Part shown: positions 2,613 to 5,122 of the stretch, piece by piece | Position numbering within the stretch: position 1 is the first letter of the stretch | How the letters are laid out: each line of letters starts with the position of its first letter | Assembly (NCBI GenBank): GCA_903927965.1 | Contig: CAIYPA010000393.1 | Span: 1 to 56,501, forward strand | Reading direction: 5' to 3' | DNA from: an uncultured Bacteroidia bacterium | Lineage (GTDB): Bacteria > Bacteroidota > Bacteroidia > Bacteroidales > Prolixibacteraceae | Length of the DNA: 56,501 nucleotides | Translations under genes and position numbers: made by a program | The notes under the pieces: model-generated | Seen by the model: the letters and a program-made list of their open reading frames with translations, nothing else | The model's database searches: none | Told to the model about the DNA's origin: nothing

Positions 2613-2684
2613 TTAATAAAAATCAAGAATTTCGAAAAGATCAAGTTTCGCTCGGGGCGACCAAATTACTTTTCTTTTAACCAT
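2613..2684 (-). pseudogene. Truncated ParE/RelE toxin (first 23 codons)
   Basis: An ATG at 2684 lies inside the 3' end of the antitoxin gene (2666-2902) and opens a 23-codon frame containing 'VIWSPRAKLDLFEILDFY'. That is a clear match to the N-terminus of ParE/RelE-type plasmid-stabilisation toxins (typically '..V.WSP.A..DL.EI.DYI'). A TAA at 2613-2615 ends it, and no continuation is visible in other frames before the next gene. The toxin (normally about 95-100 residues) has therefore lost most of its body, leaving an antitoxin without partner. The overlap with the antitoxin is the usual antitoxin-toxin junction. Confidence 0.65.
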
Positions 2685-2902
2685 TGGTCAATCTCCATTT
2701 CAACCTGTTCATTGGTAAAGCTTTCTCCATTAGCAATTTGGTTTCGTCCTTCCAAAATCTTAATGCGCTGTTCTGCAGTTGTTTGATAGATCAATGAATC
2801 AGACCTGGATTCAATTAGCGTGTTAATTGCTGTAAGAAAAGATTTATCGTCAATCCCAGCAATTCTGTGTATTAGGATATTTTTCAATTCAATGGTTGTC
2901 AT
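2666..2902 (-). CDS. Antitoxin of a ParE/RelE-type module (orphan)
   Basis: A 78-residue acidic protein. It starts 'MTTIELKNILIHRIAGIDD' and ends '..FTNEQVEMEIDQWLKEK', the C-terminal pattern (G...T.EEV..E...W..) of small addiction-module antitoxins found before ParE/RelE toxins in Bacteroidota. The toxin gene should begin inside its 3' end and does so at 2684, but is cut after 23 codons. It has a candidate promoter of its own at 2920-2953, downstream of the terminator of the small RNA. Likely role: former DNA-binding/neutralising antitoxin, now without toxin. Confidence 0.7.
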   Translation of the reverse strand: MTTIELKNILIHRIAGIDDKSFLTAINTLIESRSDSLIYQTTAEQRIKILEGRNQIANGESFTNEQVEMEIDQWLKEK

Positions 2903-2919
2903 GACTAATTCATTTGAAG

Positions 2920-2953
2920 CAAAAATACAAAATTTGAGAGTAGATTCTACAAA
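2920..2953 (-). promoter_or_regulatory. Candidate promoter of the orphan antitoxin
   Basis: Minus strand: TTTG (2953-2950), 22 bp, TATTTTTG (2927-2920). The -7 element is a full TAnnTTTG match; the spacer is slightly longer than the usual 19-21. The ATG is 18 bp downstream, and the element sits between the small-RNA terminator and the gene. Confidence 0.45.
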
Positions 2954-2964
2954 TTATTAAAATG

Positions 2965-3070
2965 AAAAAAGGGCTTTCGCCCTTTCTTGCACTACAGGAG
3001 GCCTGTAATGCCCAAGGAGTTTCCTCCAGGATAACTGCGTTTGGGAGGTCTTACAACCTAAACCGCACAC
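2965..3070 (-). ncRNA. Candidate structured small RNA (about 105 nt) with intrinsic terminator
   Basis: Minus strand. A promoter (3106-3075) predicts a start near 3068. The transcript would contain a stem CCCAA/TTGGG (3045-3041 with 3015-3011) enclosing a GGAG-GAAA-CTCC tetraloop hairpin (3027-3016), then a 10-bp hairpin GCATTACAGG/CCTGTAGTGC (3011-3002 with 2998-2989, 3-nt loop). It ends in AAAGGGC-GAAA-GCCCTTT followed by TTTTT (2985-2965), an intrinsic terminator. TGTAA (3055-3051) can alternatively pair with TTACA (3008-3004), giving a competing rod-like fold. No open reading frame fits. It does not look like tRNA, 4.5S, RNase P or tmRNA. A 6S-Flavo-type RNA is possible but not shown; the family is unassigned. 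Confidence 0.6.
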
Positions 3071-3074
3071 ATCG

Positions 3075-3106
3075 CAAAGATAAAACAGATTAATTCAAAA
3101 AGCAAA
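3075..3106 (-). promoter_or_regulatory. Bacteroidota promoter of the small RNA
   Basis: Minus strand: TTTG (3106-3103), 20-bp spacer, TATCTTTG (3082-3075). Both elements and the spacing agree with the Bacteroidota primary sigma consensus TTTG-N19-21-TAnnTTTG. No protein gene begins within 170 bp downstream. Confidence 0.65.
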
Positions 3107-3150
3107 TATTATTTATGCATCTTCGGTATGCATGGATCTATTTACATAAT

Positions 3151-3219
3151 TTTTGCGGTTGTGGCAGCACCTTGCCCGCCTTTGTTTTATTTGGTGATAG
3201 GAATTCTTGCAAACGAAAG
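3151..3219. repeat. 70-bp repeat copy 1 ('ttttgcggtt...ttgcaaacgaaaga')
   Basis: About 70 bp that align with 4245-4316 in the same orientation. Both run ttttgcggtt, a variable block, gcacctt, cc, ttggtgat, gaa, ttgcaaacga. Short open frames of 60-65 codons cross it on the plus strand but show no protein-like pattern. Confidence 0.6.
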
Positions 3220-3342
3220 AATTATAACATCTTCACCTCAATCAAAGAGCATAACAAAAATGACTTTCCAGATTTTTGGAACGATGCCCCATTATTCCAA
3301 GGGAGTTTATAAGGTATAATTGAAAATGCAATATACAATAAG

Positions 3343-3393
3343 CGATAGCTTTACCAGAGATTTGCGAAGTTCCTGAAAAAGGTTGTTATGGGC
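3343..3393 (+). repeat. Direct repeat copy B (degenerate GNAT 3' end)
   Basis: This non-coding stretch resembles the last 50 bp of the GNAT gene at 1283-1332 (shared 'ctttacca', 'tttgcgaagtt', 'aggttgt.atgg'). It is too diverged to code. It marks the right side of the first half of the small-gene patch. Confidence 0.65.
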
Positions 3394-3464
3394 TTTTATA
3401 CTAAACGGTTTTAACAAAGAATAATTATTTCCCAAATTAGCATTTGATCTTTTGTGGCATAATA

Positions 3465-3913
3465 TCAACTTTCCCGTTTTAGGCTTCTCATCTCAAATAA
3501 CTCTTCTGTGGTTATTACTTTTTTAAAACCTTTCAAAATCAATCCATTCCTGAGGACCTTGTCTCCAGACCAGATTTTTGTTTTGAAAAACATGGAAAAA
3601 GCAACGTAGGGCGTATCCTTGGGGTCAATGTCTAAAACCAATTGTTCTGCTCTTATCCAATACACTTCAGGAACATGGACTCCTGACAAAAATAAAATAG
3701 GTTTTGTTATTTTGTTTTCGATATCCTGAACCTCAGATATTGTCATTTTTGAAAGCAGGGAAATCTTCTTGAGTATTTCTTGGTTTCGGTCAATAAATAA
3801 TCAGGAGCAATAAAATCGAAAAATCCTTTTGAATTCAACAGTAAATCTGCAATCTTACTGTTTGTGTTGAGGATTGCGCTAAAAACGATATTCGCATCTA
3901 CAATAATTTTCAT
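3465..3913 (-). pseudogene. PIN-domain toxin gene with one-base frameshift
   Basis: The ATG at 3913 overlaps the antitoxin stop by 4 bp. The first frame reads 'MKIIVDANIVFSAILNTNSK', a classical PIN N-terminus with the first catalytic Asp in 'VDAN'. It runs to a stop near 3746. The second half, in the -1 frame, reads 'DPKDTPYVAFSMFFKTKIWSGDKVL', the PIN C-terminal metal-binding region (D-x-x-D, then W-[ST]-G-D). The switch lies around 3770-3776 (residues before it 'LTETKKY', after it 'KKISLLSK'). The span of 449 bp is one base short of 150 codons, so one base has been lost or missed in sequencing. An intact product would be a roughly 149-residue VapC-like endoribonuclease. Confidence 0.75.
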
Positions 3914-4113
3914 TTAATGAACCTATCTCGGTTTTTGGACCACCAATTATCATTTAGTTCATCAGCAAGCTTATCCGCATCGGCTTGGGTGGCTTTACTT
4001 TTTGATGTTATTTCAAGATATTCAAGATAGTCCATAATACCCTGAAATCCAAAGGTATCAACATCTTTAGAAATTTTTATTACGATTTGGTCACTTGTTC
4101 TTTCAATGATCAT
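3910..4113 (-). CDS. Antitoxin of the PIN module
   Basis: A 67-residue protein, 'MIIERTSDQIVIKISKDVDT...', with a beta-strand-rich start and a charged helical C-terminus ending 'WWSKNRDRFIK'. It lies directly upstream of the PIN toxin gene with an ATGA overlap, and has a strong promoter match (4162-4131). These features support a type II antitoxin that binds the PIN toxin and its own promoter. The antitoxin family is not certain. Its frame is intact although the toxin frame is broken. Confidence 0.7.
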   Translation of the reverse strand: MIIERTSDQIVIKISKDVDTFGFQGIMDYLEYLEITSKSKATQADADKLADELNDNWWSKNRDRFIK

Positions 4114-4130
4114 AACTTCAATTTTTTATT

Positions 4131-4162
4131 CAAAATTACTTAATTCCGACATGAAATACAAA
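4131..4162 (-). promoter_or_regulatory. Promoter of the PIN toxin-antitoxin module
   Basis: Minus strand: TTTG (4162-4159), 20 bp, TAATTTTG (4138-4131), an exact match in both boxes and spacing to the Bacteroidota consensus. The antitoxin ATG is 18 bp further on. Confidence 0.6.
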
Positions 4163-4183
4163 CCGTTTGGATAACTGTGTAAA

Positions 4184-4216
4184 AGTAAAGCCTTCAATTG
4201 GAGTGAAGGCTTTACT
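4184..4216 (-). terminator. Hairpin terminator after the DUF4160-DUF2442 pair
   Basis: A 13-bp perfect stem AGTAAAGCCTTCA / TGAAGGCTTTACT with a 7-nt loop, followed on the minus strand by TTTTA. A near-identical hairpin stands at 4961-4993, about the same distance behind another minus-strand gene. Confidence 0.6.
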
Positions 4217-4244
4217 AAATAATTTGGCACAACCTCAATTCTGT

Positions 4245-4316
4245 TTTTGCGGTTTTGTTTGCACCTTTACCGTTTTTGTTAGTTGGTGATGGAAATTGTT
4301 GCAAACGACTGAAAGA
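4245..4316. repeat. 70-bp repeat copy 2 with imperfect palindrome
   Basis: Second copy of the repeat at 3151-3219. This copy forms an imperfect hairpin: GTTTGCA (4257-4263) pairs perfectly with TGCAAAC (4300-4306), and inside it CC..ACC pairs with GGT..GG. The overall look resembles a recombination-site or small-element palindrome, but the integron attC core consensus is not present. Confidence 0.55.
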
Positions 4317-4340
4317 TAAAGGCTACCGAGTGGTAATCTT

Positions 4341-4583
4341 TCAAATTATCCCCTCGTGCAAATCCCAGATTGGGAAGCACATTTCGTAATCGTTCCAGAT
4401 TATATCGCCATGCTCAATCGAATATCCTTTAAACATTTGCTTATCAAGAAATTTTCTGGTCATTGGATTTTTTGCGTTATTTAAAAAACCTGAAAAATCT
4501 ATCAAACGCTCAACTCCATCGGAGAAAAGAAAATTGATTTTGTATTCTCCTACTATCTCAGCTTTATCTATTGAAATAACCAT
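4341..4583 (-). CDS. DUF2442 domain protein
   Basis: An 80-residue protein of the DUF2442 type. It has the strand pair 'VGEYKINFLFSDGVERLIDF', the central 'FKGYSIEHGDIIWNDYEMCF' (usual 'f....i..g.i.Wp...D') and a short tail. It lies 4 bp downstream of a DUF4160 gene on the same strand. DUF4160 and DUF2442 genes are commonly found paired and have been suggested to form a toxin-antitoxin-like module; that role is inference here. This is the only module in the patch in which both frames are intact. Confidence 0.75.
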   Translation of the reverse strand: MVISIDKAEIVGEYKINFLFSDGVERLIDFSGFLNNAKNPMTRKFLDKQMFKGYSIEHGDIIWNDYEMCFPIWDLHEGII

Positions 4584-4587
4584 AACC

Positions 4588-4890
4588 TTAAATTTTTCTT
4601 GTTATTTTTTCAGACGAGAACTCGATATTGTATATAAAGAAATCGATCCACTTTCTGACTATATCGTCACGATAAAGCTCAACAATCCTTTTGAATTTCT
4701 TTAAATTTTGGGCATCCAAAGGTGCTTTACCGGGAACGTCCTTGATTATTATCTCCTTAAACTTTCCATTTTCAAAGATAATTTCAGCTTTACTTTCCTT
4801 GTCCTGATATTTTCCATGAACATGAGTCGGGTCATGCTCATGGGAATAAAACAGAAAAATCAATCCGAAATATTCATATAATTTTGGCAT
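4588..4890 (-). CDS. DUF4160 domain protein
   Basis: A 100-residue protein with the DUF4160 signature: an N-terminal 'MPKLYEYFGLIFLFYSHEHDPTHVH' region containing the conserved 'H.PpHVH' His cluster, then 'AEIIFENGKFKE' strands and a helical end. It is the first gene of a two-gene unit with DUF2442, 4 bp apart. The minus-strand -7 box TATCTTTG (4914-4907) lies 17 bp upstream of the ATG. The molecular activity of the family is unknown; pairing with DUF2442 suggests a toxin-antitoxin-like unit. Confidence 0.8.
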   Translation of the reverse strand: MPKLYEYFGLIFLFYSHEHDPTHVHGKYQDKESKAEIIFENGKFKEIIIKDVPGKAPLDAQNLKKFKRIVELYRDDIVRKWIDFFIYNIEFSSEKITRKI

Positions 4891-4960
4891 AATCTTAACT
4901 TTATGGCAAAGATAAGAAATCCAAATGACTTATTTCGCCAAATTGAATTGAAATGTAAAA

Positions 4961-4993
4961 AGTAAAGCCATCACTTGGAGTGAAGGCTTTACT
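4961..4993 (-). terminator. Hairpin terminator after the FISUMP gene
   Basis: Stem AGTAAAGCCATCA / TGAAGGCTTTACT (one A-A mismatch) with loop CTTGGAG. On the minus strand it is followed by TTTTTACA. It is nearly identical to the hairpin at 4184-4216, differing at a few positions around the loop. Confidence 0.6.
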
Positions 4994-5122
4994 AAAATCG
5001 CAATTATCAATGATTCTGATATTTATCATATTGCTTACTTCAAAGTAAACTGTTGCAGCCTACCATCTTGAAAACAGCATACACCGAACGTAAAGAAACA
5101 CGTTCCGTATTTCTAAGCACAC

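Follow-up and report, generated by a model that had tools for sequence, protein, structure and literature searches.

A structured small RNA gene in the immunity-gene position beside phage-type toxin genes of Bacteroidota, and its candidate role as an RNA antitoxin

The stretch of DNA analysed here (the window, 56,501 nucleotides (nt) long, contig CAIYPA010000393.1) comes from an uncultured Bacteroidia bacterium of the Prolixibacteraceae, and on its minus strand lies a gene for a small structured RNA that we call R1. Positions were read directly from the minus strand of the window (R1 being the RNA of window 2965-3070), and the features are collected in Table 1. R1 consists of four hairpins between a promoter and a terminator of its own. 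Its minimum free energy is -47.7 kcal/mol against a mean of -31.14 (standard deviation 3.64) for 200 dinucleotide shuffles, none of which was as low. A sequence-only reading of this region had described a Bacteroidota promoter on the minus strand, an RNA of about 105 nt, a GGAG-GAAA-CTCC hairpin, a 10-bp hairpin and a strong intrinsic terminator. Direct reading bore out the promoter (its -7 box is present in 4/4 copies of R1), both hairpins and the terminator, and the comparison with dinucleotide shuffles agrees with a structured RNA.

Table 1. Positions of R1, its parts and the adjoining features in the window
Feature	Position	Strand	Remarks
R1 promoter	3075..3106	(-)	TTTG (3106-3103), N20, TATCTTTG (3082-3075)
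R1, RNA of about 105 nt	2965..3070	(-)	Fold z -4.55; covariance model R1 match at 2965-3073
Helix P1 with inner hairpin P1b	3037..3070	(-)	Four P1 pairs kept in 4/4 copies; compensatory changes in P1b
Invariant core AUCCUGGAGGAAACUCCUUGGGC, 23 nt, including hairpin P2 (GGAG-GAAA-CUCC)	3010..3032	(-)	Identical in 4/4 copies; hairpin at 3027-3016, with CC/GG closing it
Hairpin P3, 10 bp	2989..3011	(-)	Both sides changed at two pairs
Intrinsic terminator GGGC-GAAA-GCCC + T6	2965..2988	(-)	Kept in 4/4 copies
Toxin gene 3′ remnant KNTKFESRFYKLLK + stop	2924..2965	(+)	14 codons, ending beside the R1 terminator
Putative promoter of next gene	2920..2953	(-)	TTTG 2953-2950, N22, TATTTTTG 2927-2920 (by eye)
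78-amino-acid (aa) gene beside R1	2666..2902	(-)	Toxin-antitoxin antitoxin-like by eye; no Pfam match

R1 is present at a second place in its own genome (G000, 7.6 Mb in 584 contigs), at C345:14333-14478, where it is 88% identical, and a search of IMG/VR with the core pattern added loci L005, L006 and L008. Since L006 and L008 are identical over 744 bases, there are four distinct copies in total. Common to all four are a -7 box TATnTTTG, the 23-nt core and the terminator; the upstream TTTG of the promoter is, by eye, kept in L006, CTTG in C345 and not clear in L005. Differences between the copies in P1b and P3 are compensatory: of the alignment cells 96.0% are paired and five pairs are changed on both sides, a result reached by 1/500 shuffles of this four-sequence alignment. 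Promoter and terminator kept at four distinct loci, two helices with compensatory changes, the lack of an Rfam family and the lack of any RNA-strand reading frame open in all four copies uphold the earlier proposal of a stand-alone new structured RNA as opposed to a leader. Two of the pairings proposed with it are not borne out by the copies: in the CCCAA/TTGGG stem, CCCAA becomes CCTAA or CTGAA in the copies while TTGGG stays unchanged, and the alternative TGTAA/TTACA pairing finds no TGTAA in the C345 copy.

Known families do not account for R1. At the gathering score, Rfam gave a single match in the whole window, a tRNA away from R1; at E <= 10 there were six weak matches, none of them 6S, the best reaching 20.9 bits where its gathering score is 80. 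Identity with 6S RNA, tRNA or tmRNA was rejected, there being no match, and the suggestion of a 6S-Flavo RNA finds no support, 6S families being absent at both levels. Tandem repeats were looked for in R1 and none was found. The possibility of a mundane many-copy repeat is likewise removed, as R1 occurs at two places in its own genome and in none of 60 relatives (E <= 0.001).

The distribution of R1 is narrow. A covariance model built from the four copies scored the two copies of the home genome at 120.2 and 122.9 bits; across 100 relatives and 295 further genomes from the phylum its scores did not exceed 27.5 bits. All seven weak matches, of 22.9-27.5 bits (G060, G014, G078, G093, G170, G207 and a third place in the home genome), look like terminators only, and core matches with two mismatches in four relatives sit in apparent protein-coding sequence. 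The core pattern had no hits in a genome-contig collection, and R1 DNA was absent from the phage and plasmid collections searched. Among 86 sources of regions around MuF genes, R1 exceeded 20 bits only in three that carry the toxin described next, two of which are the same sequence; in 56 further loci (sets 2 and 3 below) it was not found, the best score being 13.8 bits.

Outside the window, R1 has a constant partner. In C345 its 3′ end meets the stop codon of a 246-aa open reading frame (ORF) that runs towards it, and its neighbours at the same end in L005 and L008 are convergent genes coding for 543 and 552 aa; thus R1 lies tail-to-tail with a toxin gene in 3/3 toxin-bearing loci, with an overlap of 0-1 nt. 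All three proteins end in the same domain (the other two are 58 and 66% identical to that of L008), which matches Pfam CdiA_C (PF18451) at 24.7, 24.6 and 24.8 bits against a cut-off of 26.6. The L005 and L008 proteins carry an N-terminal MuF part that matches head morphogenesis and minor head PHROGs, and their genes come next after an SPP1-type portal gene (Pfam). The C345 ORF is toxin-only, without the MuF-type head N-terminus, and the toxin/RNA pair there adjoins what looks by eye like a glycoside hydrolase gene. When viral contigs were scanned with the toxin domain, the three loci recovered were again the known L005/L008-type phage loci, and a covariance search placed R1 beside each (L032 and L033 being represented by L038 and L039). 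Every full-length relative of the R1-linked toxin found here has R1. More distant relatives occur in two genomes, G048 and G096; a genome-contig collection yielded none, and the toxin was absent from the phage and plasmid collections.

Two further observations concern these neighbourhoods. A frame with an internal repeat (L003:7233-7514) lies upstream of the C345 toxin-only ORF. A small YFGS-type protein encoded upstream of the L008 RNA (L008:1258-1518) was considered as an immunity protein and rejected: its relatives occur in most MuF loci, within the convergent block that follows the MuF gene and whatever the kind of toxin, and none is near the C345 or L005 copies.

A D..[DE]xK pattern, the CdiA_C name given by Pfam and the biology of nucleases in contact-dependent growth inhibition (CDI), some of which are tRNases (PMC9086364), suggest that the toxin domain is a nuclease. 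By this reading the toxin would cut RNA. A sequence search of the PDB with the toxin domain gave no convincing match. The first structural model was poor (pLDDT 46.3) and its Foldseek matches meaningless; the second had no Foldseek match at E <= 0.001, and VIA gave nothing decisive.

In the window, R1 sits among non-phage genes, and what is left on the toxin side is a remnant of 14 codons. Seven of the 14 residues are the same as at the ends of the C345 and L008 toxins; its score of 34 compares with a next best of 24 among the 2273 stop-ending 14-residue peptides of the window, and its position is the toxin's place at the other R1 loci. From this comparison the toxin gene seems to have been lost save for these codons, while R1 remains with an identical core. 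Among CDI systems, immunity genes left without their toxin are a known pattern (PMC9086364). The 78-aa gene is outside the R1 system and marks the edge of the toxin remnant. Small minus-strand genes resembling toxin-antitoxin remnants are also seen by eye at window 2625-5000, including a ParE-like fragment after 2666.

According to the accessible portions of Jamet 2017 (PMC5576092) and of PMC11699363, a small ORF next to a MuF toxin provides immunity, and this allowed us to ask what lies in that position across many MuF genes. We counted a convergent ORF of at least 60 aa within 60 nt of the MuF gene stop, a long tail being at least 100 aa. Set 1 comprised 85 loci (80 plus five phages), of which 62 were kept, 48 long-tailed, after dropping 12 in which the contig ended before any stop, 10 that shared their last 150 nt with another locus and one with <300 nt downstream. 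Set 2 comprised 66 new loci of 80; 16 duplicates, seven without a stop and three short ones were dropped, leaving 40, 34 of them long-tailed. With L034, added by hand, the long-tailed genes numbered 83. Set 3 comprised 52 new loci of 80; L201 was left out (its contig ends at the gene) and 27 were dropped, leaving 24, 22 of them long-tailed. The Pfam search covered sets 1 and 2 in full and 10/22 of set 3 (the no-ORF genes except L231, nine in number, plus L227); the remaining set 3 genes were classed only by a local profile built from earlier toxins.

A convergent ORF fills the slot next to the MuF gene stop in 41/48 long-tailed genes of set 1 vs 5/14 short-tailed ones. Porphyromonas phage005b and Bacteroides phage Versailles have an ADP-ribosylglycohydrolase among the convergent genes that follow MuF; in the sections of PMC11699363 consulted, such neighbours are immunity proteins. 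The CdiA_C genes by Pfam in sets 1 and 2 plus L034 (L038, L034, L110, L121, L123, L124, L135 and L177) have no slot ORF in 8/8 cases, vs 12/75 other long-tailed genes (p 3e-6), and a convergent TAnnTTTG box with a terminator stands in the slot in 7/8 of them vs 1/75 others and 3/2490 random places. Because the RNA itself had led to L038 and L034, and because L121, L123 and L124 are close relatives, the comparison was repeated with the first two left out and the latter three counted once: the slot ORF is then missing in 4/4 vs 12/75 (p ~0.001), and both p values are optimistic because the loci are related. In set 3 the slot ORF is missing from 6/6 profile-positive genes (4/4 above 90 bits) vs 4/16 others, and a promoter box is present in 6/6 vs 4/16. 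As separate observations, two MuF toxins of the ADP-ribosyltransferase kind, L053 and L079, have no convergent ORF in the 60 nt past the stop, and the L188 and L182 MuF genes contain weak intein and homing-endonuclease-like Pfam matches.

R1 is one of several RNA-like elements in this position. R2, unrelated to R1, has the core CCGAUUAAGUUCG, common to L121, L123, L124, L196 and L224/L231, beside related toxins. In its RNAalifold structure 14/24 pairs are changed on both sides, which 0/500 shuffles reach; the structure was derived from the same alignment, which favours the test, and slides of 1-3 columns give at most three such pairs. A third RNA, R3, is shared by L211 and L219, and a fourth RNA-like unit by L213 and L226, past stops 4466 and 2914, where the tails are Gln_amidase with an extra C-terminal domain. 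At L110:5625-5763 a promoter-RNA-terminator unit follows a CdiA_C-type MuF toxin and holds a tRNA T-arm-like element, UUGGGUUCAAAUCCCAA, stacked on a longer stem; ARAGORN did not call this unit a tRNA, and a search of 296 genomes for relatives of the L110 toxin, made without a positive control, found none. Folding z values of single candidates are -6.91 (L110), -5.48 (L093), -3.91 (L042) and -1.52 (L121). ARAGORN called no tRNA in the eight loci searched, and Rfam searches of 11 loci at the gathering level returned only a distant tRNA. Just past stop 1164 on the minus strand of L042 there is also an RNA-like unit of about 70 nt with a stretch GATTCT..GGATTCGAC, which we take, by eye, to be reminiscent of the 5′ part of tmRNA.

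One hypothesis, which we consider probable, is that R1 is a noncoding immunity factor, an RNA antitoxin, for a phage-borne nuclease toxin, and that the window copy is an orphan. An antidote made of RNA is proposed because R1 stands in the position that a gene for a protein antidote occupies beside related phage toxins, and action on the toxin protein because the overlap with the toxin gene is at most 1 nt while the internal core is fixed. The MuF head protein of temperate-type Bacteroidota phages can carry a toxin domain at its end, from which a lysogen needs protection. In the CdiA_C-like class, a short RNA gene that brings its own promoter and terminator would stand in for the small convergent immunity-protein gene. 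The RNA, if constantly made, would fold as a look-alike of the toxin's substrate, bind the nuclease domain directly and block the active site. The orphan in the window may still guard against an incoming toxin or against the intact C345 toxin of the same genome.

Several results weigh against this hypothesis. The R1 family consists of four sequences, and the evidence is that of sequence analysis. CdiA_C scores mostly fall under the Pfam cut-off, only L196, which is R2-linked, exceeding it at 27.4 bits; a PD-(D/E)XK fold of the toxin domain gains no support from the structure searches, in which CDI toxins are not among the matches listed, a result that counts neither way. In G048 the end of the CdiA_C-like MuF-type gene overlaps the next co-directional ORF and leaves no room for an RNA, and the L110 candidate RNA is co-directional with its toxin gene. 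Besides the relatedness of the loci, the box with terminator in set 3 (2/6 vs 3/16) does not separate the classes, and the set 3 profile scores two Gln_amidase toxins that have an ORF, L106 and L109, at 19 bits, which is above L211 and L219. Units also stand beside the non-CdiA_C tails L187 (LPD3), L206 (ART), L213 and L226, and ten non-CdiA_C long-tailed genes of sets 1 and 2 lack an ORF and, by eye, also a full unit except in L042 and L093.

Other mechanisms could place an RNA at the end of a toxin gene. In an antisense, type I-like arrangement, the RNA or its read-through would pair with the convergent toxin mRNA at the 3′ end of the latter, blocking or destabilising it, which suits the tail-to-tail layout of 7/8 CdiA_C loci and the direct reading that a toxin mRNA extending past its stop would hold the RNA's complement. 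We regard this as unlikely, since the terminator-bounded RNA overlaps the toxin gene by only 0-1 nt and the 23-nt core is identical between copies though the toxins are only 58-66% identical. The helices of R1 and R2 covary, which pairing with the neighbour does not need, and the L110 unit is co-directional. The orphan retains core and promoter, although pairing in trans would still be possible.

Rather less probable is a decoy, in which the nuclease cuts the RNA and cellular RNAs are spared by competition, with no tight inhibition. The T-arm-like element of the L110 candidate would fit, as would the tRNases with a related domain name known from the part of PMC9086364 seen, but by eye R1, R2 and R3 have no such T-arm, and no tRNA was called in the eight loci. 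We give very little credence to a tiny immunity protein encoded in the same interval with the RNA features secondary. All four copies do have one toxin-strand frame that stays open across the RNA interval, and in the window and C345 it could, on direct reading, begin at an ATG overlapping the toxin stop; L005 and L008, however, have no ATG at that place, the frame would cross the complement of promoter and terminator, no RNA-strand frame is open in all four, and the changes follow base pairs. Equally improbable is that R1 serves the phage as a structural or packaging RNA, or is a small phage RNA of general kind that merely lies near head genes: 2/4 R1 loci lie within head gene clusters, but R1 above 20 bits is restricted to toxin-bearing sources among the 86 and absent from the 56 further loci, the C345 pair is near a glycoside-hydrolase-like gene and the window copy near non-phage genes.

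Beyond R1 as an RNA antitoxin, we would extend the hypothesis tentatively, rating it at somewhat less than an even chance, to a class of polymorphic toxins, nucleases borne on phage head proteins: in place of immunity proteins these may use noncoding RNAs of several unrelated families, which would mimic the toxin's RNA substrate, move together with the toxin tip as a cassette and persist in bacterial chromosomes as orphans. The available text of PMC5576092 and PMC11699363 presents proteins as the source of immunity to polymorphic toxins, and RNA immunity to them is not described in the titles and abstract openings of the literature searched, which largely left subscription papers and preprints outside. 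If RNAs do play this part for a nuclease class, annotation pipelines that seek small ORFs miss RNA immunity genes, inhibition of the type III kind would reach toxins delivered by virions, and a function open to testing could be assigned to orphan small RNAs of bacterial genomes.

In type III toxin-antitoxin systems (ToxIN, CptIN, AvcID) the antitoxin RNA lies upstream in the toxin operon, often as repeats. The likeness is that an RNA would neutralise a protein toxin directly, as proposed here; R1 differs in its convergent position downstream of the toxin gene, its own promoter, the lack of repeats, another toxin domain and a toxin on a virion protein. 6S-Flavo RNA is a Bacteroidota small RNA of a size like that of R1, whereas R1 has no covariance match to it and is linked to toxins. 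CdiA_C/CdiI of CDI shares a related Pfam toxin domain name, and orphan immunity genes are known there, but immunity is by protein and delivery by CdiA, as far as the text of PMC9086364 at hand goes. MuF polymorphic toxins, including Bxa with Bsi and BAH, combine a MuF head protein ending in a variable C-terminal toxin domain with an adjoining protective gene in the passages seen of PMC5576092 and PMC11699363; small ORFs or proteins serve as immunity there, whereas here the convergent slot holds a noncoding RNA gene.
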